Part shown: in pieces, positions 11,018 to 25,607 of the stretch | Position numbering within the stretch: position 1 is the first letter of the stretch | Layout: each line of letters opens with the position of its first letter | Assembly: GCA_023254905.1 (NCBI GenBank) | Contig: JALRKF010000028.1 | Location: 1 to 32,984, forward strand | Direction: 5' to 3' | Source of the DNA: Crocinitomicaceae bacterium | GTDB taxonomy: Bacteria; Bacteroidota; Bacteroidia; Flavobacteriales_D; Crocinitomicaceae | Length of the DNA stretch: 32,984 nt | Position numbers and translations under genes: made by a program | The notes under the pieces: model-generated | Database searches by the model: none | Seen by the model: the letters and a program-made list of their open reading frames with translations, nothing else | Told to the model about the DNA's origin: nothing

Positions 11018-11530
11018 TTATTTAGAGTGTATTCGTCCAGTAATACGTTCTATATTCCGTTCACCCTTGAATTCTTTCCACATCGAACAAATTGATTTTT
11101 TGCTCACCGGATGTATGTAATTCGGAGCAATTTCATTCAATGGTTTGAGAACAAAGTTTCGATTGTTTATTTCCGGGTGAGGAATTTTAAGGAGTTCTTC
11201 AAGTATTACTTGATCATCATAAAACAAAATATCAATATCTAATGGCCTTGATTCATAGCCTTTATTCAAATCAGGCCTAGATCTGCCGCGTTTACTTTCT
11301 AATTCCTGACAGTATTCTAAAAGTTCCAAGGGCTCTAAATTTGTTTTACCGAGTAGACACAAGTTTAGGAAGTCTTGTTCTGCAATCATTTCGAATGGTG
11401 GAGTTTCATAAACGGATGATATCTTTTTTATCGTAATTACAGATTCCAAAGCATTTAGGGCACCTTGAAGGTGCTCAAATCGATCTCCAAGATTTGAACC
11501 AAGAGCCAAAATTACTATTGAATCGGCCAT
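11018..11530 (-). CDS. folK: 2-amino-4-hydroxy-6-hydroxymethyldihydropteridine pyrophosphokinase
   Basis: A 170-residue HPPK that transfers pyrophosphate from ATP to hydroxymethyl-dihydropterin in folate synthesis. The N-terminal ALGSNLGDRFEHLQGAL, the YETPPF substrate segment and the metal-binding signature SRPLDIDILFYDD (two essential aspartates) followed by IPHPEINNRNFVL are all present. The gene overlaps the end of gldD by 16 bases and is the last member of the mutY-ssb-gldE-gldD-folK run. Confidence 0.95.
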   Translation of the reverse strand: MADSIVILALGSNLGDRFEHLQGALNALESVITIKKISSVYETPPFEMIAEQDFLNLCLLGKTNLEPLELLEYCQELESKRGRSRPDLNKGYESRPLDIDILFYDDQVILEELLKIPHPEINNRNFVLKPLNEIAPNYIHPVSKKSICSMWKEFKGERNIERITGRIHSK

Positions 11531-12090
11531 TTGAATGTGGTAAGCAGAGTGTCTAGATCTCTCTTCAAATAGTCTAGAGAAGGTTTCAGAGAGTCATAAT
11601 TAGGACGGCTATTAAACAAAATCTCTGCATAAATGAATTTTTCTAAACTGTCAGTAAGATAAAATTGGAAGGGTGTCGCTACGTCTCCCTCTAATTCGAA
11701 TACTGTACCAAAAACACGATCATTTTCGCGAATGATCTTTTTGTCTCTAATATTTGTTGCTTTTACTTGATGCATTTCAACTTCATCAATGGAGTTATTG
11801 ATGTAGAATGATACAGGTTCAATCATATTTATGTATCGAAAAAATAAAGTGCCGTTAAGTTTACCAAGTTGGATTCTTCTATGGCAGTTGATTTCCTCAT
11901 TTTCAATCGGTGCTTTCTCAACTGAATAGTTAGTGTTCAATTTGAAAATATATCCACATTCATCTTTATGATCAATATATGAGGGTTCAGGCAATTCCAG
12001 GCGAAGATACGTTGGTGGCTTCGGAATCAATTGCTCCTCATCGCATGAAAATAGAATAACCAAGATCAGGAAATAAAATATTTTACGCAT
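11515..12090 (-). CDS. gldD: Gliding motility lipoprotein GldD
   Basis: A 191-residue lipoprotein with signal and lipobox MRKIFYFLILVILFSC (Cys16). Typical GldD features are the early PKPPTYLRLELPEPSY segment, a mid-region CHRRIQLGKLNGTLFFRY and the C-terminal tail FNSRPNYDSLKPSLDYL, close to family length. GldD is a core gliding lipoprotein of Bacteroidota of unknown biochemical function. It lies 14 bases downstream of gldE and overlaps folK by 16 bases, so translation is probably coupled. The pairing gldE-gldD is the order known from gliding Flavobacteria. Confidence 0.9.
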   Translation of the reverse strand: MRKIFYFLILVILFSCDEEQLIPKPPTYLRLELPEPSYIDHKDECGYIFKLNTNYSVEKAPIENEEINCHRRIQLGKLNGTLFFRYINMIEPVSFYINNSIDEVEMHQVKATNIRDKKIIRENDRVFGTVFELEGDVATPFQFYLTDSLEKFIYAEILFNSRPNYDSLKPSLDYLKRDLDTLLTTFKWPIQ

Positions 12091-12104
12091 TGTAATTCTC
12101 TAAT

Positions 12105-13439
12105 TTAGTTCGGCTGAATAATGACCTTGACCATTTTAATTCTCCGTTTATCGCTTGATTCGACAATAAATTTATACCTACCGGCTTCAATAAACTCATT
12201 GTTCATCAAAATTCTTCCAGCATTTTCAATAATAAATCCACCAATCGTGTCAGCGTTTGGTGTCTCAATTTCTAGATCCTTTTCATCAATACTCAGAACC
12301 TTGTAAAAATCTACAAGAGAGGTACGCCCTTCAAATAAATACGAATCATCATCGATCTTGGTGTAGATTATCTCATCATCGTCAAATTCATCTGTGATAT
12401 CTCCCACAATTTCCTCTAATACATCCTCTAAAGTGACTATTCCACTGGTTCCTCCATATTCATCAACGACAAAAGCGATATGAATTTTTTTGTCTTGGAA
12501 CTCTTTTAATAGATCATCGATTTTTTTATTTTCCGTCACAAAGAATGGCTTTCTGATCAATGTCAACCAGTCTGAGAAAGTATTATCATTTATGTGTGGT
12601 AAAAGATCTTTGATGAAAAGCACACCGACAATATTATCGAATGTTTCTCGGTAGATTGGTATTCTCGAATGTCCACATTCAAGAATTATTTCCATCACAT
12701 TATTGAGATCTAATGATTCTTCAATTGCGTGAACATCCACTCGAGATTTCATGATTTGACTTACTTCTGTATTCCCAAATCTTACGATTCCTTCGAGTAT
12801 TTTATGCTCTTCGTCCGTGTCGCTATCCTCTCTGGTAAGTGCTAGGGCGTGCTCAAGTTCATCAGATGAAATTTTAATTTTGCCCCTCTTCCCAATTCTT
12901 TGAATGAACCCCGTACCTTTCACCAGTCCTGCAGATATCCAAGAGACGGGTGGTATACGATTGAGGTAGTAAAGAGGTGCCCCCATGAAAACCGAGAATT
13001 TTGAGGCATTTTTTGTTGCGTAAATCTTGGGTATAACTTCACCGAACAAGAGGATGATAAGCGTAATTAGAATTACTTCAATAAGAAAATGTACTGCTTC
13101 GTTGCCATGTCTTGGATAAATATCGTTAAGAACATAACTTGAAAGTATTACTATGGCAACATTTACAAAATTATTTATCACCAGTATCGTCGCTAGTAAA
13201 CCCTTCGGCCTTTCGATCAAATAGTTAACGAAGTAGGTTTTCTTTTCTTTCTCTACTTTAAACTCCTCTTTCTCAGAGGGAGATAAAGAAAAAAAAGCTG
13301 CCTCAGAACCAGAGATAAGGCCTGAGGTTAAAAGCAATATTGCAAGCACTATTAATGAGATAATAATGCTGGGATCTGAAATTCCTGCGGTGTACGCCCA
13401 TTCTGAGGGCTCGATACTCGGAGGTTCTAATAAATTCAT
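12105..13439 (-). CDS. gldE: Gliding motility-associated membrane protein GldE (CNNM/CorC type)
   Basis: A 444-residue membrane protein of the CNNM/HlyC-CorC group. A DUF21 region with three to four membrane segments (about 25-50, 85-110 and 120-142) includes the typical SGLISGSEAAFFSLSPSE and FGEVIPKIYATKNA motifs. Two CBS-like domains follow at about 205-330 (EIILECGHSRIPIYRETFD and AFVVDEYGGTSGIVTLEDV), then a CorC_HlyC C-terminal domain (about 350-440). Members of this group have been linked to divalent-cation handling; GldE is named from its partnership with GldD. Located between ssb and gldD. Confidence 0.9.
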   Translation of the reverse strand: MNLLEPPSIEPSEWAYTAGISDPSIIISLIVLAILLLTSGLISGSEAAFFSLSPSEKEEFKVEKEKKTYFVNYLIERPKGLLATILVINNFVNVAIVILSSYVLNDIYPRHGNEAVHFLIEVILITLIILLFGEVIPKIYATKNASKFSVFMGAPLYYLNRIPPVSWISAGLVKGTGFIQRIGKRGKIKISSDELEHALALTREDSDTDEEHKILEGIVRFGNTEVSQIMKSRVDVHAIEESLDLNNVMEIILECGHSRIPIYRETFDNIVGVLFIKDLLPHINDNTFSDWLTLIRKPFFVTENKKIDDLLKEFQDKKIHIAFVVDEYGGTSGIVTLEDVLEEIVGDITDEFDDDEIIYTKIDDDSYLFEGRTSLVDFYKVLSIDEKDLEIETPNADTIGGFIIENAGRILMNNEFIEAGRYKFIVESSDKRRIKMVKVIIQPN

Positions 13440-13448
13440 AGTAGTAAA

Positions 13449-13895
13449 TTAGAACGGGAGATCGTCTTCATCCTTATTCATGATGTCATCTACCTTCGAA
13501 GGTGCATCAGGAGTTCCAGTAGAGTCGTAAGGATTTTTTTCTGTTCGAGTTTCCCTATCAGGTCTTGATAAAATCGTTAACTCGTCACCTATGACTTCCG
13601 TAGTGTATCGTGTGTTACCCTCCTTATCCTGCCAAGAGCGCTTTTTAAGTTTACCTTCAATGTAAATTTTTGTTCCCTTTCGGACATATTTTTCTACTAT
13701 TTCTGCAAGGCCCCTCCAAACTACTATATCATGCCAGTCAGTAATCTCTCTTCTTTCGCCGGTATTTTTGTCATTGTAGCTCTCGGATGTCGCTAGCGGA
13801 AAATTCGCTACCGTGGCTCCATTATCGAGATGCCTCACTTCAGGATCTTTACCCAAATTTCCAATGAGTATGACTTTATTTACGCTTCCTGCCAT
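13449..13895 (-). CDS. ssb: Single-stranded DNA-binding protein
   Basis: A 148-residue SSB. The OB-fold begins [19 protein letters not shown] and continues through [19 protein letters not shown] and [16 protein letters not shown], the hallmark of bacterial SSB. A disordered linker leads to the acidic tip DEDDLPF that recruits partner proteins. The gene is 9 bases upstream of gldE and follows mutY on the same strand. Compare the DUF3127 protein at 24223-24612, which has an identical last five residues. Confidence 0.96.
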
Positions 13896-13937
13896 TTTAA
13901 ATAGACTTTTCTTTAAATTAAAATTACAAAAATAATA

Positions 13938-14948
13938 TCAGAGATCGACATCTTCAAGGTACCTATCTATTAGTCTTGGCAATGGATATTTCTCAAGTTC
14001 ACCGTGAGGTATTTTTATCAGTTCTCTGCGTTCGAAAAGTTTTGGCAGTGCTGACATTTTATAAAAAGTAGCGTGTATCCTTCGATGACTTAAATTATGC
14101 TTTGTGCGATATTCTTGTTCGATGTAGATTTTTTTTAGTTGGCTAGGAAGCTCCATAGATTTGGTTTCCAAGAGTGGAAATTGGAACATGTTTTTCCAAA
14201 TCCCATCATGTCTTTTTTCTAAGATTAAACCATTGTCATCAGAGACCACGATAAAATGAAAAAATAGGTCTTGAATTTTTAGTTTTTTCGATTTAACGGG
14301 TCTTTCATTTATTGTTTTATTCGCAATTGCAAGACACATATTATTAACAGGACAAGCTTCACATTTAGGTCTTGATGGTTTACATATCATCGCTCCTAAT
14401 TCCATAATTGCTTGGTTGTGTTCTGCAGGGCTCGTTTTGCTTATTAATTCGTTTGCCAGAGCAGAAAATCTTTTTTGTCCTCTCGATAAATCTATCGGAT
14501 CATCAATATCAAATACTCTGCTAAGAACTCTGTAAACATTCCCGTCTACGACACCTCGCGCTTCACCAAATGCAAAACTCGAAATCGCAGCTGCGGTATA
14601 CTCACCAACACCTTTTAATTTCAATATATCATTGTAATTATCAGGAAAGACTCCGTTGAAGTCATTGACTATTTGATTCGCTGCGAAATACAAATTCCGT
14701 GCTCTTGAATAATATCCCAATCCCTGCCAGAGATTCAAAATATCTTGTTCATTTGCTTCAGCAAGCATTCTTAGATCAGGAAAACTTGAAATAAACCGAT
14801 CATAATAGGCCAAGCCCTGATCAACTTTAGTTTGTTGAAGGATTATCTCAGATAACCATATTTTGTAGGGATCTTTTGTTTTTCTCCAGGGAAGTTCTCG
14901 AGAATTTAATCTATACCAATTACGTATTTGCAGAGAAAAATCGGCCAT
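13938..14948 (-). CDS. mutY: A/G-specific adenine glycosylase MutY
   Basis: A 336-residue base-excision repair enzyme that removes adenine mispaired with 8-oxoguanine. The catalytic Glu34 sits in SEIILQQTKV, the helix-hairpin-helix is LKGVGEYTAAAI, and the catalytic Asp135 is in GVVDGNVYRV. The iron-sulphur cluster ligands are Cys189, Cys196, Cys199 and Cys205 (spacing 6-2-5). The C-terminal third has the NUDIX-like domain that reads 8-oxoG. It is the first gene of the minus-strand operon and is divergent from the HU gene, with about 100 bases between the starts. Confidence 0.96.
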   Translation of the reverse strand: MADFSLQIRNWYRLNSRELPWRKTKDPYKIWLSEIILQQTKVDQGLAYYDRFISSFPDLRMLAEANEQDILNLWQGLGYYSRARNLYFAANQIVNDFNGVFPDNYNDILKLKGVGEYTAAAISSFAFGEARGVVDGNVYRVLSRVFDIDDPIDLSRGQKRFSALANELISKTSPAEHNQAIMELGAMICKPSRPKCEACPVNNMCLAIANKTINERPVKSKKLKIQDLFFHFIVVSDDNGLILEKRHDGIWKNMFQFPLLETKSMELPSQLKKIYIEQEYRTKHNLSHRRIHATFYKMSALPKLFERRELIKIPHGELEKYPLPRLIDRYLEDVDL

Positions 14949-15006
14949 TGAAGAAAAAAAAATAAATTTATTTGGATAAAAGTAGTGCTTAAAAAAATCA
15001 TACCTC

Positions 15007-15014
15007 TAATTTTG
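15007..15014 (+). promoter_or_regulatory. Bacteroidota-type -7 box ahead of the HU/IHF gene
   Basis: TAATTTTG fits TAnnTTTG exactly, 38 bases before the ATG at 15052. No convincing -33 box is seen at the normal spacing. Confidence 0.45.
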
Positions 15015-15051
15015 CAATTCAAACTATTTAGAAACAAATAAATTTAGAACG

Positions 15052-15342
15052 ATGACAAAAGCAGATATAGTTGCGAACATTGCAGAAGACACTGGCCTTG
15101 AAAGAGTTGAGGTTTTGAAAGCAGTAGAATCTTTTATGAATTCAGTGAAAAGTTCTCTGGCGAATGGCGATAACGTTTATTTAAGAGGGTTTGGAAGTTT
15201 CATCGTTAAGGAGAGAGCCGAGAAGACAGGAAGAAATATTTCCAAGAATACTTCTATCATTATTCCCGCGCACAATGTTCCAGCTTTTAAACCTGCAAAA
15301 ACTTTTGTAGAGGAGGTTAAAACGAAGGTGGAAGTTAAATAG
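15052..15342 (+). CDS. HU/IHF-family DNA-binding protein
   Basis: A 96-residue nucleoid protein of the HU/IHF family. It starts MTKADIVANIAEDTGLERVE, continues with a helical dimer segment (VLKAVESFMNSVKSSL), the GFGSFIVKERAEKTGRN signature and the beta-arm core IPAHNVPAFKPAKTF, whose proline lies at the tip that intercalates into DNA in this family. It bends and compacts DNA as a dimer; HU and IHF cannot be separated from sequence alone. Located upstream of the small basic-protein gene and rng. Confidence 0.94.
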   Translation: MTKADIVANIAEDTGLERVEVLKAVESFMNSVKSSLANGDNVYLRGFGSFIVKERAEKTGRNISKNTSIIIPAHNVPAFKPAKTFVEEVKTKVEVK

Positions 15343-15377
15343 TTCTGAGCGAATTAGAACAAATCAAATTCGTTTAT

Positions 15378-15385
15378 TATCTTTG
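15378..15385 (+). promoter_or_regulatory. Bacteroidota-type -7 box ahead of the 30-residue basic protein
   Basis: TATCTTTG is an exact TAnnTTTG match in the 128-base gap after the HU/IHF gene, 86 bases upstream of the tiny gene. The same octamer precedes the tRNA-Leu gene in this window. Confidence 0.5.
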
Positions 15386-15470
15386 CACTCCTTTTATACA
15401 TAGGAAGTTAACTGCTTTGTGAAAAAAGGATAACAGACTGATAAAAAAGTTTAACTAAATATAAAGTATT

Positions 15471-15563
15471 ATGCCAAGTGGTAAGAAAAGAAAAAGACAT
15501 AAGATGTCTACGCACAAGCGTAAGAAGAGATTGAGAAAGAATCGTCACAAAAAGAAGAAATAA
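15471..15563 (+). CDS. 30-residue basic protein, AURKAIP1/COX24 (bS22/mS38)-like
   Basis: A very small gene, ATG at 15471 and TAA at 15561-15563, encoding 30 residues of which most are Lys, Arg or His. The core KRHKMSTHKRKKRLRKNRHK lines up with the COX24/AURKAIP1 domain (human-type core RRKMNHHKYRKLVKKTR): the KM pair, the HK pair and the spacing of basic residues agree. In that family the mitochondrial mS38 and mycobacterial bS22 members are ribosomal proteins near the decoding centre, so a ribosome-associated role is likely, by inference. It stands between the HU/IHF gene and rng, with its own promoter box upstream. It lacks a signal peptide. Confidence 0.8.
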   Translation: MPSGKKRKRHKMSTHKRKKRLRKNRHKKKK

Positions 15564-15601
15564 TCTAATCACTAAAATCGATGGTATTTTCGAATTAAGA
15601 A

Positions 15602-17188
15602 ATGATTCCGAAAATACCACACGATGAAAATCAAGCTTTTGTGGGTTTAGAATTAGTCGTAGATGCCCGAAAAAAAGGCATTTGGCTTGCATTACTCGAA
15701 GACGGAAAGCTTATTGAATTGCATGAGGAACGCGGCAAAAATGAATTTGCTGTTGGCGATATATATCTAGGGAAAGTACGAAAAGTTGTTCCTAGCCTAA
15801 ATGCCGCCTTTGTAGATGTGGGTTACGAGAAAGATGCATTTCTTCATTACCTGGATTTAGGACCTCAGTTCAATTCCCAAAATAAGTTTTCTAAGGATAC
15901 ACTTCGCGGTAAGCAAAATGTACCAGATCTCCTATATTTTAAGGGTGAAAAAGATATTCCTAAAGAGGGGAAAATTAATGATGTTATGTCTTCATCGCAA
16001 CCGATATTAGTTCAGGTTGCTAAAGAACCAATTTCATCGAAAGGACCAAGACTCTGTGCAGAGATTACTTTGGCAGGAAGATTTTTAGTGCTTGTGCCAT
16101 TTTCCAATAAGGTTTCTGTTTCGCAGAAGATAAAGGATTCAAAAGAGAAAGATCGTTTAAAGGAAATTTTGAACAGTATCAAGCCGAAAAATTTCGGAGT
16201 TATTATCAGAACGGTAGCAGCCAATAAGAAAATTGAGTTGCTCGACCAGGATTTGAAAAACCTTCTCGAGAAGTGGAAAAAAATGTATTCGAACTTAAAG
16301 GATGCAAAACCTCCAAATCGAGTTCTGGGTGAAATTGATAAAACGGCATCAATCTTGCGTGATTTATTAAATGCCGATTTCACTAACATCCACGTAAATG
16401 ATGCTGATCTCGCAGAAAATCTTAGAGATTATGTAAGCGGTATTGCTCCTGGTCGCGAGAAGATTGTCAAAAATTATGACGGAAAACTTCAAATGTTTGA
16501 GCGATTTGGGATAAATAAACAGATAAAAACTCTTTTCGGAAAGAAGGTCCCTCTTCCTAGCGGAGGTTACCTAATAATTGAGCATACTGAAGCAATGCAT
16601 GTCATTGATGTCAATAGCGGTAATCGCAAAGGTGCTGATGGCCAGGAGAGTAATGCACTTGCCACTAATATTGAAGCAGCAGAAGAAATTGCACGTGTTC
16701 TTCAATTAAGAGACATGGGAGGAATTATCTGTATCGACTTTATTGACATGCACGATAGGGCCAATAATAAGGCATTGCACGAGGCAGTGAAAAAGGCAAT
16801 GGCACGGGATCGCGCAAAGCATAATGTACTGGCTCCTTCTCGATTTGGAGTAGTAGAGATTACAAGACAACGAGTACGTCCAGAAACGGATATTAACACT
16901 TCAGAAACTTGCCCAACTTGCAATGGAACGGGTGATGTTCAGGCATCTATTCTTTTCGCAGAAGAAATTGAGTCAAACCTTGATTATCTAATGGTTGAAC
17001 GAAAAGAAAAAGAGGTAATGCTTCAAGTACATCCTTATTTAGAGTCCTATTTCAGGCGCGGTTTAATTTCAAAGCGATTTAAATGGTTTCTAAAATATAA
17101 GAAATGGATACGAGTGCAGGGAATATCGGCTTACCACCTATTACAGTATAATTTCGTTAATAAGAATCAAGAAGAAATTAAACTTTAG
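15602..17188 (+). CDS. rng: Ribonuclease G (RNase E/G family)
   Basis: A 528-residue endoribonuclease of the RNase E/G family, acting in rRNA maturation and mRNA turnover. The S1-like N-terminal part contains VGDIYLGKVRKVVPSLNAAF and VDVGYEKDAFLH. The catalytic magnesium-binding residues are Asp336 in HVIDVNSG and Asp379 in ICIDFIDM, and the zinc-link is Cys437 and Cys440 in CPTCNGTG. It lacks the long disordered RNase E scaffold, so rng is the better name. It starts 38 bases after the small basic-protein gene and is followed after 2 bases by recX. Confidence 0.93.
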   Translation: MIPKIPHDENQAFVGLELVVDARKKGIWLALLEDGKLIELHEERGKNEFAVGDIYLGKVRKVVPSLNAAFVDVGYEKDAFLHYLDLGPQFNSQNKFSKDTLRGKQNVPDLLYFKGEKDIPKEGKINDVMSSSQPILVQVAKEPISSKGPRLCAEITLAGRFLVLVPFSNKVSVSQKIKDSKEKDRLKEILNSIKPKNFGVIIRTVAANKKIELLDQDLKNLLEKWKKMYSNLKDAKPPNRVLGEIDKTASILRDLLNADFTNIHVNDADLAENLRDYVSGIAPGREKIVKNYDGKLQMFERFGINKQIKTLFGKKVPLPSGGYLIIEHTEAMHVIDVNSGNRKGADGQESNALATNIEAAEEIARVLQLRDMGGIICIDFIDMHDRANNKALHEAVKKAMARDRAKHNVLAPSRFGVVEITRQRVRPETDINTSETCPTCNGTGDVQASILFAEEIESNLDYLMVERKEKEVMLQVHPYLESYFRRGLISKRFKWFLKYKKWIRVQGISAYHLLQYNFVNKNQEEIKL

Positions 17189-24222: not shown

Positions 24223-24612
24223 TTAAAATGGAAGATCGTCTTCTTCTTCATTGCTCTCGGTAGTTGATCCAGTAGCAGGTGCAGGTTCAGAACCTAGATC
24301 CATAGGGGAGGGACCACCTTGAGGCATTCCCTGAGCAACTTTTTCAATTCTCCAGGCATCCAAAGTGTTGAAATAACGAATTTCACCTTGAGGGCTTGTC
24401 CATTCTCTTCCTCTTAAGTTAAAAGAGACTTCAACTTGCTCTCCCGGTTGTATCCCATCCAACATTCCGCATTTGTCTTGAACAGATTGAAATAGGATAT
24501 CTTGAGGATACATATTAGATGTATCTGTTACGACGAACTCTCTTTTCGCAAATTTTTCAGTTACTTGAACTGTATCGTTCACCACTTTCACCGTTCCATT
24601 AAGTTTGTACAT
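24223..24612 (-). CDS. DUF3127 protein with SSB-like acidic C-terminal tip
   Basis: A 129-residue protein of the DUF3127 family, starting MYKLNGTVKVVNDTVQVTEK at 24612; a longer frame to 24663 exists but begins inside the neighbouring gene and is unlikely. The body has the alternating strands of an OB-like fold (KREFVVTDTS, VEVSFNLRGREW and RYFNTLDAWRIEKV). A disordered Gly/Pro/Ser linker leads to a last segment EEEDDLPF, which ends in the same DDLPF as the SSB in this window. I infer a nucleic-acid-related role that uses SSB-type partners; function is not established. It is followed by a strong terminator. Confidence 0.75.
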   Translation of the reverse strand: MYKLNGTVKVVNDTVQVTEKFAKREFVVTDTSNMYPQDILFQSVQDKCGMLDGIQPGEQVEVSFNLRGREWTSPQGEIRYFNTLDAWRIEKVAQGMPQGGPSPMDLGSEPAPATGSTTESNEEEDDLPF

Positions 24613-24643: not shown

Positions 24644-25552
24644 TTAGCCGTTGTTAAATGCAAGAAGCGTCATCCAAGCTTCTTGAATTTTTTCTTGTTT
24701 GAGTAGTTCTGATGCTTTTTTATGAAGTTCTGTTTCTAGTAAAGCTGCATTATCCTCGAGACCTATAAATAGGTCACTCAACTCCATAAGCTTATATTCA
24801 TTCACATCTGTCTCGCTCGGGATCTCTTCAATTCCCGCTAGTTGACCGAGCTCATTTCCCGTTAAAATATTTGACTGAATAATGTCCATCGGGATATTAT
24901 CAAATCCGACTCCAATAGTCGTGATTGGCTTATTAATCTCGAACATTGAATTTTCATCAGCTCTGCAATACCAGTTGCCTCCCATTCTTGATACAAGGTC
25001 AATTTTTTTCTGATCTATCATTTGATTTTCGTCAAGAACAGCCTCATTTATATGAATCTTAACTACTTCACAAATAACCAAATTGCCGGCTCCTCCTAAC
25101 TCTCCCAATTCAACGACATCATTTACTCTACATTCAAATTGTACAGGAGATTCCCCAACCCGTCTTGGTTTAATTAGCTCAGAATCTAAGGCAGTAAATC
25201 CAGCTTTCTTAAACTCATCCACTTGTGGTTCAAAAGGAGAGCTTGCCAAGCTCATTTGATGCACCATTTTGTGCGTTACCACATTAATAACAACTTCTGG
25301 CACTTCTTTGACATTATTGTAGGTGTCCTTTGTAGCATTGGTTCTTCCGCTCCTCGCAGGGGAAAATATCATTATCGGCGGATTCGCACTGAATACATTG
25401 AAAAAACTGAATGGCGCTAGATTATGATTGCCTCGTTTATCTACAGTTGCAGCAAATGCAATTGGTCGCGGCCCGACAGCACCTAGAAGGTATCTGTGAA
25501 TTTCAGGTACAGCTAACTCTGACGGGTCTAATGTGATAATCTGATTTCGCAT
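24644..25552 (-). CDS. Flavin reductase-like (FMN-binding) protein
   Basis: A 302-residue protein with a flavin-reductase FMN-binding domain in its N-terminal two thirds: LLGAVGPRPIAFAATVD (about 24-40), LAPFSFFNVFSANPPIMIFS and KDTYNNVKEVPEVVINVV. The C-terminal 80 or so residues form a helical extension (LMELSDLFIGLEDNAALL) not needed for the fold. ATG at 25552 (MRNQIITLDPS) is preferred over the ATG at 25561. Electron partner and substrate are unknown. The gene lies upstream of the DUF3127 gene on the same strand, whose start is 31 bases beyond its stop. Confidence 0.82.
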   Translation of the reverse strand: MRNQIITLDPSELAVPEIHRYLLGAVGPRPIAFAATVDKRGNHNLAPFSFFNVFSANPPIMIFSPARSGRTNATKDTYNNVKEVPEVVINVVTHKMVHQMSLASSPFEPQVDEFKKAGFTALDSELIKPRRVGESPVQFECRVNDVVELGELGGAGNLVICEVVKIHINEAVLDENQMIDQKKIDLVSRMGGNWYCRADENSMFEINKPITTIGVGFDNIPMDIIQSNILTGNELGQLAGIEEIPSETDVNEYKLMELSDLFIGLEDNAALLETELHKKASELLKQEKIQEAWMTLLAFNNG

Positions 25553-25607
25553 ACAATACAAATTTAGGTTGATTAAATTGTATACTGCTGTAGGACAAAG
25601 CCTAATT

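Follow-up and report, generated by a model that had tools for sequence, protein, structure and literature searches.

DUF3127 as a probable second chromosomal SSB of Bacteroidota: a protein with a predicted SSB-type OB fold and an SSB-type acidic tip

The acidic C-terminal tip of the single-stranded DNA-binding protein (SSB) is regarded as a hub of bacterial genome maintenance, and SSB-interacting proteins include RecO, PriA, RecG, RecQ, RecJ and others. Second SSBs of the SsbB type are PF00436 paralogues, and PriB, which has no tip, acts in the primosome. In typical SSB-tip pockets the last phenylalanine is buried, its carboxylate is held and the acidic residues are contacted (PMC10164576). 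E. coli dies when the tip is deleted (PMC10164576), and B. subtilis survives on a tipless SSB alone, with defects (PMC3000357).

The DUF3127 family (PF11325) can be compared with each of these proteins. It shares a predicted OB topology, a linker and a D-D-[LI]-P-F tip with the bacterial SSBs of the Pfam family PF00436, such as E. coli SSB, B. subtilis SsbA and the Salinibacter ruber SSB (5odn), but differs from them in matching no PF00436 model, in an identity of 8-22% in the structural matches listed and in conserved motifs of its own, R-E-[WYF] and [WY]-[YF]. As with the SsbB-type SSBs of B. subtilis and S. pneumoniae, it would be a second SSB in one cell; those proteins are expressed in competence, and a C-terminal truncation of S. 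pneumoniae SsbB has been used in one study, whereas DUF3127 is a separate family, and 102 of the 105 genomes examined in its class possess it. With PriB it has an SSB-like OB fold in common (Z 12.1) and is distinguished by its linker and tip.

The closest described relatives are phage proteins. The phage proteins of PHROG 4932 (from Flavobacterium, Cellulophaga and Nonlabens phages) belong to the same PF11325 family as the protein studied here; their genes lie in recombination or replication clusters, whereas our gene is chromosomal and outside such clusters. The SSB of Pantoea phage AAS23 has been given both SSB-type (PRK09010) and DUF3127 domain assignments (PMC8004638). A sequence-only reading of this DNA had called the family uncharacterised, which is not wholly so: members are annotated, though no more than that, as 'single strand DNA binding protein' in PHROG 4932 and in several phage records of RefSeq, whose notes cite PF11325. 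The SSB idea is therefore not wholly new for DUF3127, since the phage members already carry it. A 2014 study that includes the F. psychrophilum SSB makes no mention of DUF3127 in the portion consulted (PMC3991886), and a search of titles and the beginnings of abstracts, outside which most subscription journals and all preprints lay, returned no paper on chromosomal DUF3127 as an SSB or on loss of the SSB tip in these bacteria. What is new here is that many genomes of one bacterial family, f5, have only tipless ordinary SSBs or none that could be matched, while DUF3127 stays.

The protein and its predicted fold

The window, that is, the whole stretch of 32,984 nucleotides that was analysed, contains a DUF3127 gene at 24223..24612 on the minus strand, whose translation is 129 aa long. 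The ATG at 24612 is likely its start because homologues begin at the same position; the mechanical open reading frame opens earlier, at a TTG. PF11325 matches residues 4-90 with an E-value of 1.1e-25 (90.1 bits against a curated cut-off of 27), and the PHROG 4932 profile matches residues 2-129 along its entire length (positions 1-117 of 117; E 3.9e-34). The SSB model PF00436 gave no match, PF11325 being the sole model reported at E-values up to 10, and the protein is therefore not filed under PF00436.

Three parts can be recognized in the protein, all encoded on the minus strand. Residues 1-91 (24340..24612) form a predicted OB-fold body. Residues 92-121 (24250..24339) form a linker of about 30 residues rich in Pro, Gly, Ser and Thr, which differs among aligned homologues and has low pLDDT in the model, so that the earlier description of a low-complexity linker similar to that of SSB is a fair one. 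Residues 122-129 (24226..24249) form the acidic tip EEEDDLPF. The likeness of this end to that of the SSB encoded in the same window, also pointed out in the sequence-only reading, is borne out by both translations: the canonical SSB (PF00436; 13449..13895, minus strand; 148 aa) ends in DEDDLPF.

When the genome of the window (2,266,073 bases, 83% complete) was scanned for DNA encoding [DE][DE]-[LIVMF]-P-F followed by a stop, exactly two occurrences were found, at the DUF3127 gene and at the ssb gene, and a reversed control of the pattern gave none in the same genome. The SSB-like end of DUF3127 is thus not due to chance. Three further PF00436 proteins of 103-116 aa are encoded in tandem in this genome (C105:10496-11473; L138-L140); all of them are tipless, with at most some 15 residues beyond the OB domain, and the tip is therefore not an automatic companion of the fold. 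On one side of this tandem lies a gene of the FdhD/NarQ family (PF02634). In another genome (G033) a second SSB (L175) ends in GDLPY, its last residue being Tyr and not Phe, and a tipped SSB is present in the same genome.

The sequence-only reading had described the body as OB-like and had proposed structure prediction as a check. An AlphaFold2 model, built from 18 DUF3127 sequences only, agreed with it: pLDDT block means were 84-95 over residues 1-90, the order of elements was b-b-b-a-b-b, and the body of the window protein is accordingly predicted to take an SSB-type OB fold. All of the best 50 PDB matches returned by Foldseek for this model were SSBs (E 7e-6 to 8e-5); the lack of other OB families among these 50 was not counted as evidence. 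VIA placed the Salinibacter ruber SSB (5odn) at Z 12.7 over 92 residues with a deviation of 2.2 A, and PriB structures followed close behind. A lower-confidence model of the other large DUF3127 clade, built from 17 sequences, likewise had an SSB at the head of its matches; the E-values were weaker there, and PriB and MCM OB domains appeared on the same list.

With the tips removed, a profile comparison of 157 DUF3127 bodies with 43 SSB bodies (7 of 49 long tipped SSBs being omitted as divergent-looking) gave an E-value of 2e-4 with a probability of only 47% over 50 columns, against 0.26 for the reversed control, and an hmmsearch with the DUF3127 family profile found no match among PDB sequences at an E-value of 10. 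A phmmer match to a PDB entry at 2.6e-7, to a three-repeat chain of PsaD (Photosystem I subunit II), was rejected as chance, as its score summed several stretches of which the best alone had an E-value of 1.3. Five DUF3127 columns are aromatic in every sequence. The window SSB has aromatic residues at Y40, W54, W60 and W88; one of the five columns aligns to W88 (156 of 156), and the column aligned to W60 is aromatic in 110 of 157 proteins and is Val in the window protein. Positions 40 and 54 lie outside the aligned stretch, and the alignment holds the window SSB rather than that of E. coli, in which the base-stacking residues are W40, W54, F60 and W88 (PMC3991886).

Conservation of the tip and distribution of the family

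Alignment of DUF3127 C-termini, which had been suggested as a further check, revealed a conserved tip. All 31 whole-genome loci, including that of the window, end in PF, as do all 79 readable named loci, the 80th running off its contig. When pooled, the first copies of distinct chromosomal proteins end in PF in 157 of 157 cases, with D, D and L at positions -5, -4 and -3 in 140, 136 and 142 of them, respectively. This set excludes duplicates, seven proteins of f5 (all seven of which end in PF) and a tipless second copy in G401, the only second copy in the tip counts; with that 90-aa protein included, 157 of 158 distinct chromosomal proteins end in Pro-Phe. The conservation is not circular, because the homologues were found by their bodies and not by their tips.

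Ordinary SSBs were less uniform. Set side by side in 46 genomes, DUF3127 was tipped in all 46, against 56 of 91 PF00436 proteins (93 were listed, two of which were not fetched). At least one PF-ended PF00436 protein was present in 45 of these genomes, the exception being G325, a member of f5. By eye, no clear match was seen between the tips of DUF3127 and SSB within genomes (one genome pairs DHDVPF with DDDLPF). In the reverse comparison, all 20 SSBs read from genomes without DUF3127 were tipped, a sample chosen among the best-scoring matches and so favouring canonical SSBs.

PF11325 was matched in 218 of 392 genomes of the phylum. In the class of the window only three of the 105 genomes gave no match, and 99 of the 102 positive genomes had a single match (count from the listing); in the rest of the phylum DUF3127 was matched in 116 of 287 genomes, with no match in 171. 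Among 14 control genomes only Bacteroides ihuae had it. From 581 loci found, 80 named ones were retained, and these bear Bacteroidota titles except for one metagenome-assembled genome labelled Sphingomonadales. A PF00436 protein was found in 389 of the 392 genomes of the phylum.

DUF3127 was also found in 107 phage records, 103 of which are named after Bacteroidota genera. In phage P12024S it lies in a cluster with ERF, a YqaJ exonuclease and a primase, other phage clusters have RecT, NinG, ERF or primase neighbours, and three further phage loci are less telling in context. The tip is less constant here: 10 of 13 phage members end in PF, and the three that do not (L035, L392 and L394) are that of P12024S, which ends in DADPLF, and those of 1/32 and Freya_1, which stop after the OB body. 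One of two plasmid members is without the PF end. The DUF3127 gene of Tenacibaculum phage Gundel_1 (L385) is annotated 'DUF3134', probably a mislabel.

Ordinary SSBs in family f5

Family f5, which may be Weeksellaceae, is mixed, and many of its genomes depart from the pattern of two tipped proteins. In 48 of its 100 genomes no tipped PF00436 protein was found, 42 having tipless ones only and six having none; at least 18 keep a tipped one, and 34 were incompletely read. The six without a match at an E-value of 0.001, the only threshold used for them, are G393, G401, G402, G404, G416 and G464, with completeness of 93-99%, and PF00436 was thus matched in 94 of 100. Exactly one PF00436 protein was found in 44 genomes, and the PF end was missing in 42 of these (36 of 38 and 6 of 6). 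Two or more matches were found in 50, of which 22 were read by best match (14 with PF, 8 without), two in full and 26 not at all; the genomes seen to keep a PF-ended protein are those 14 together with G392, G413, G095 and G277.

The 42 tipless single proteins comprise 34 of 104-120 aa and eight longer ones, all of the genus g191 (L308, L310, L314, L354, L360, L365, L367 and L371). The latter end in DLSF, HSEF, QHDF, QNDF and the like; to judge from these letters they look like decayed tips, and the decay is possibly still in progress. A stretch similar to the SSB of f5 (71% over 77 residues) occurs on an Elizabethkingia plasmid.

DUF3127 was present in every one of the 80 f5 genomes that were searched, and 73 of them gave a single match; the search covered the list of 100 up to its last 20 entries together with the SSB-less G464, and all six genomes without PF00436 were among the 80. 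In two samples, 34 of 35 and 8 of 8 of these DUF3127 proteins end in PF. In G308, which is a single contig and 99% complete, ends of the form [DE][DE]-[LIVMF]-P-F occur only on DUF3127 and on the replicative helicase DnaB. A DnaB tip of DDDDDFPF or DDDEDFPF was seen in the four f5 genomes, of eight, whose DnaB was read (G012, G210, G277 and G308; L244, L246, L255 and L256); the identification as DnaB is based on PF03796 and PF00772 in L244 of G012, and the protein of G308 was named by its counterpart in G012.

The place from which ssb is missing can be located by synteny. In the window, positions 11515-17188 hold the order RNase G - HU - mutY - ssb - gldE - gldD. Here mutY (13938..14948; HhH-GPD and NUDIX_4 domains) is the upstream neighbour of ssb and served as anchor, and gldE (12105..13439; TIGR03520, E 2.6e-149) and gldD (11515..12090; TIGR03512, E 1.1e-47; also placed by tblastn synteny) come after ssb, all three on the minus strand and named by likeness. 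The order from RNase G to gldE is kept in 5 of 5 genomes of f6 read, with ssb adjoining gldE. Within 1.5 kb after mutY no ssb was found in any of the eight f5 genomes read, and gldD follows mutY in five of them, ssb and gldE having gone from between. G041, which belongs to the same family as the window, has its mutY and its ssb on separate contigs.

The retention of the DUF3127 tip where many ordinary SSBs of f5 have lost theirs is the strongest evidence for reading DUF3127 as a second SSB. In f5 genomes with a tipless SSB or none, DUF3127 is probably the main or the only chromosomal SSB-type partner hub. We go further, with little better than even confidence, in suggesting that DUF3127 displaced the ordinary SSB in f5, being the only SSB where PF00436 is absent and the sole carrier of the hub where the SSB is tipless; a takeover of the hub role in much of the family is favoured to the same modest degree. 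Since B. subtilis is viable with a tipless SSB, the f5 genomes suggest such a takeover and do not prove it. If the displacement is true, a 'domain of unknown function' has there taken the place of a replication protein that is among the most constant in bacteria. Part of f5 appears to have shifted its hub from the ordinary SSB to DUF3127, so that nature itself offers a test of which functions of SSB depend on a tip carried by the protein that coats the DNA, and the prediction follows that DUF3127 is essential where the SSB is tipless or absent.

DUF3127 as a probable second SSB, and other readings

Taking together the sequence, predicted fold, tip, presence and phage context, we consider it likely that Bacteroidota have in DUF3127 a second chromosomal SSB, mostly present as a single copy and bearing the same tip. 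The second SSB-like protein proposed from the letters alone thus gains support from the SSB-type fold of the model and from the conserved tip. The OB-fold body (residues 1-91) would coat single-stranded DNA, the flexible linker would allow the tail to move, and the Asp-Asp-Leu-Pro-Phe tip may dock in the SSB-recognition pockets of SSB-interacting proteins; the end of DUF3127 supplies the Phe, the carboxylate and the acidic residues contacted in such pockets. In most genomes it would act alongside a tipped ordinary SSB. Several observations speak against this reading: the protein does not match PF00436, its family profile finds no PDB sequence, the profile match to SSB is of low probability, the window protein has Val at the position aligned to W60, some phage, plasmid and second chromosomal copies are tipless, f5 is mixed, and many genomes of the phylum outside the class give no DUF3127 match. 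Much of one phylum appears to have two tipped chromosomal proteins, one of which has been concealed by its DUF label, and a family that nearly every genome of the class possesses would receive a name.

A specialised auxiliary role is the alternative that survives best, and we rate it as possible, at clearly lower probability. Like SsbB of competent Firmicutes or the SSBs of phages, DUF3127 would then coat single-stranded DNA in only one pathway (recombination, DNA uptake or phage-like replication), and the ordinary SSB, tipped or not, would do the work at the fork. The near-universal presence of PF00436 in the phylum, the recombination clusters around the phage copies and the sufficiency of a tipless SSB for the life of B. 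subtilis (PMC3000357) are in agreement with it. However, DUF3127 is nearly always present in the class, mostly as a single match, and in f5 it is more constant (80/80) than PF00436 (94/100), which is the behaviour of a core gene; moreover, no competence or recombination neighbour recurs among 91 chromosomal loci.

A second alternative, which we think unlikely, is that DUF3127 is not a separate SSB and forms mixed oligomers with tipless SSBs, to which it lends its tips. The same genomes do often have PF00436 paralogues without a tip, a good number of them 104-120 aa long, but the six f5 genomes with DUF3127 and no PF00436 match speak against it, as DUF3127 should therefore manage alone there. 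Still less probable is an SSB-fold protein for another ligand (RNA, a protein, or a PriB-like part of the primosome) with a tip serving recruitment only: PriB structures almost equal SSB as matches to the model, but PriB-type proteins are tipless where the DUF3127 tip is conserved, and one phage has its copy flanked by exonuclease and primase genes, the expected place of an SSB. Short acidic protein tails are common, but that the tip is convergent, functionless acid-rich low complexity is scarcely credible given a Pro-Phe end in every first copy beside a freely varying linker and exactly two such ends in the window genome.

The chromosomal neighbourhoods of DUF3127 weigh against the second-SSB reading rather than for it. 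They were compared at 91 of 99 loci, the remaining eight having been dropped because the DUF3127 open reading frame was missed in calling. Even the most widely shared neighbour family is present at 11 of the 91 at most, and no conserved DNA-repair neighbourhood was found among them. Genomic context was therefore set aside as a functional clue, there being no neighbour common across lineages, and the two associations that were seen were judged to be lineage-level synteny only. The first is a flavin-reductase cluster one or two open reading frames upstream of DUF3127 in six of the 91 loci (the window, G041 and four of f6), represented in the window by a flavin-reductase-like gene just upstream (24644..25561, minus strand; PF01613, E 5.6e-19). 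The second is aat (PF03588), which is the next gene downstream in five of the 91 loci (four of f6, one of f5) and is absent from that place in the window. Nine further loci of f5 were read, and aat comes after DUF3127 in seven of them, four being from the six SSB-less genomes and three from the three others; in those four SSB-less genomes DUF3127 is therefore orthologous to the chromosomal gene and does not stem from a phage.
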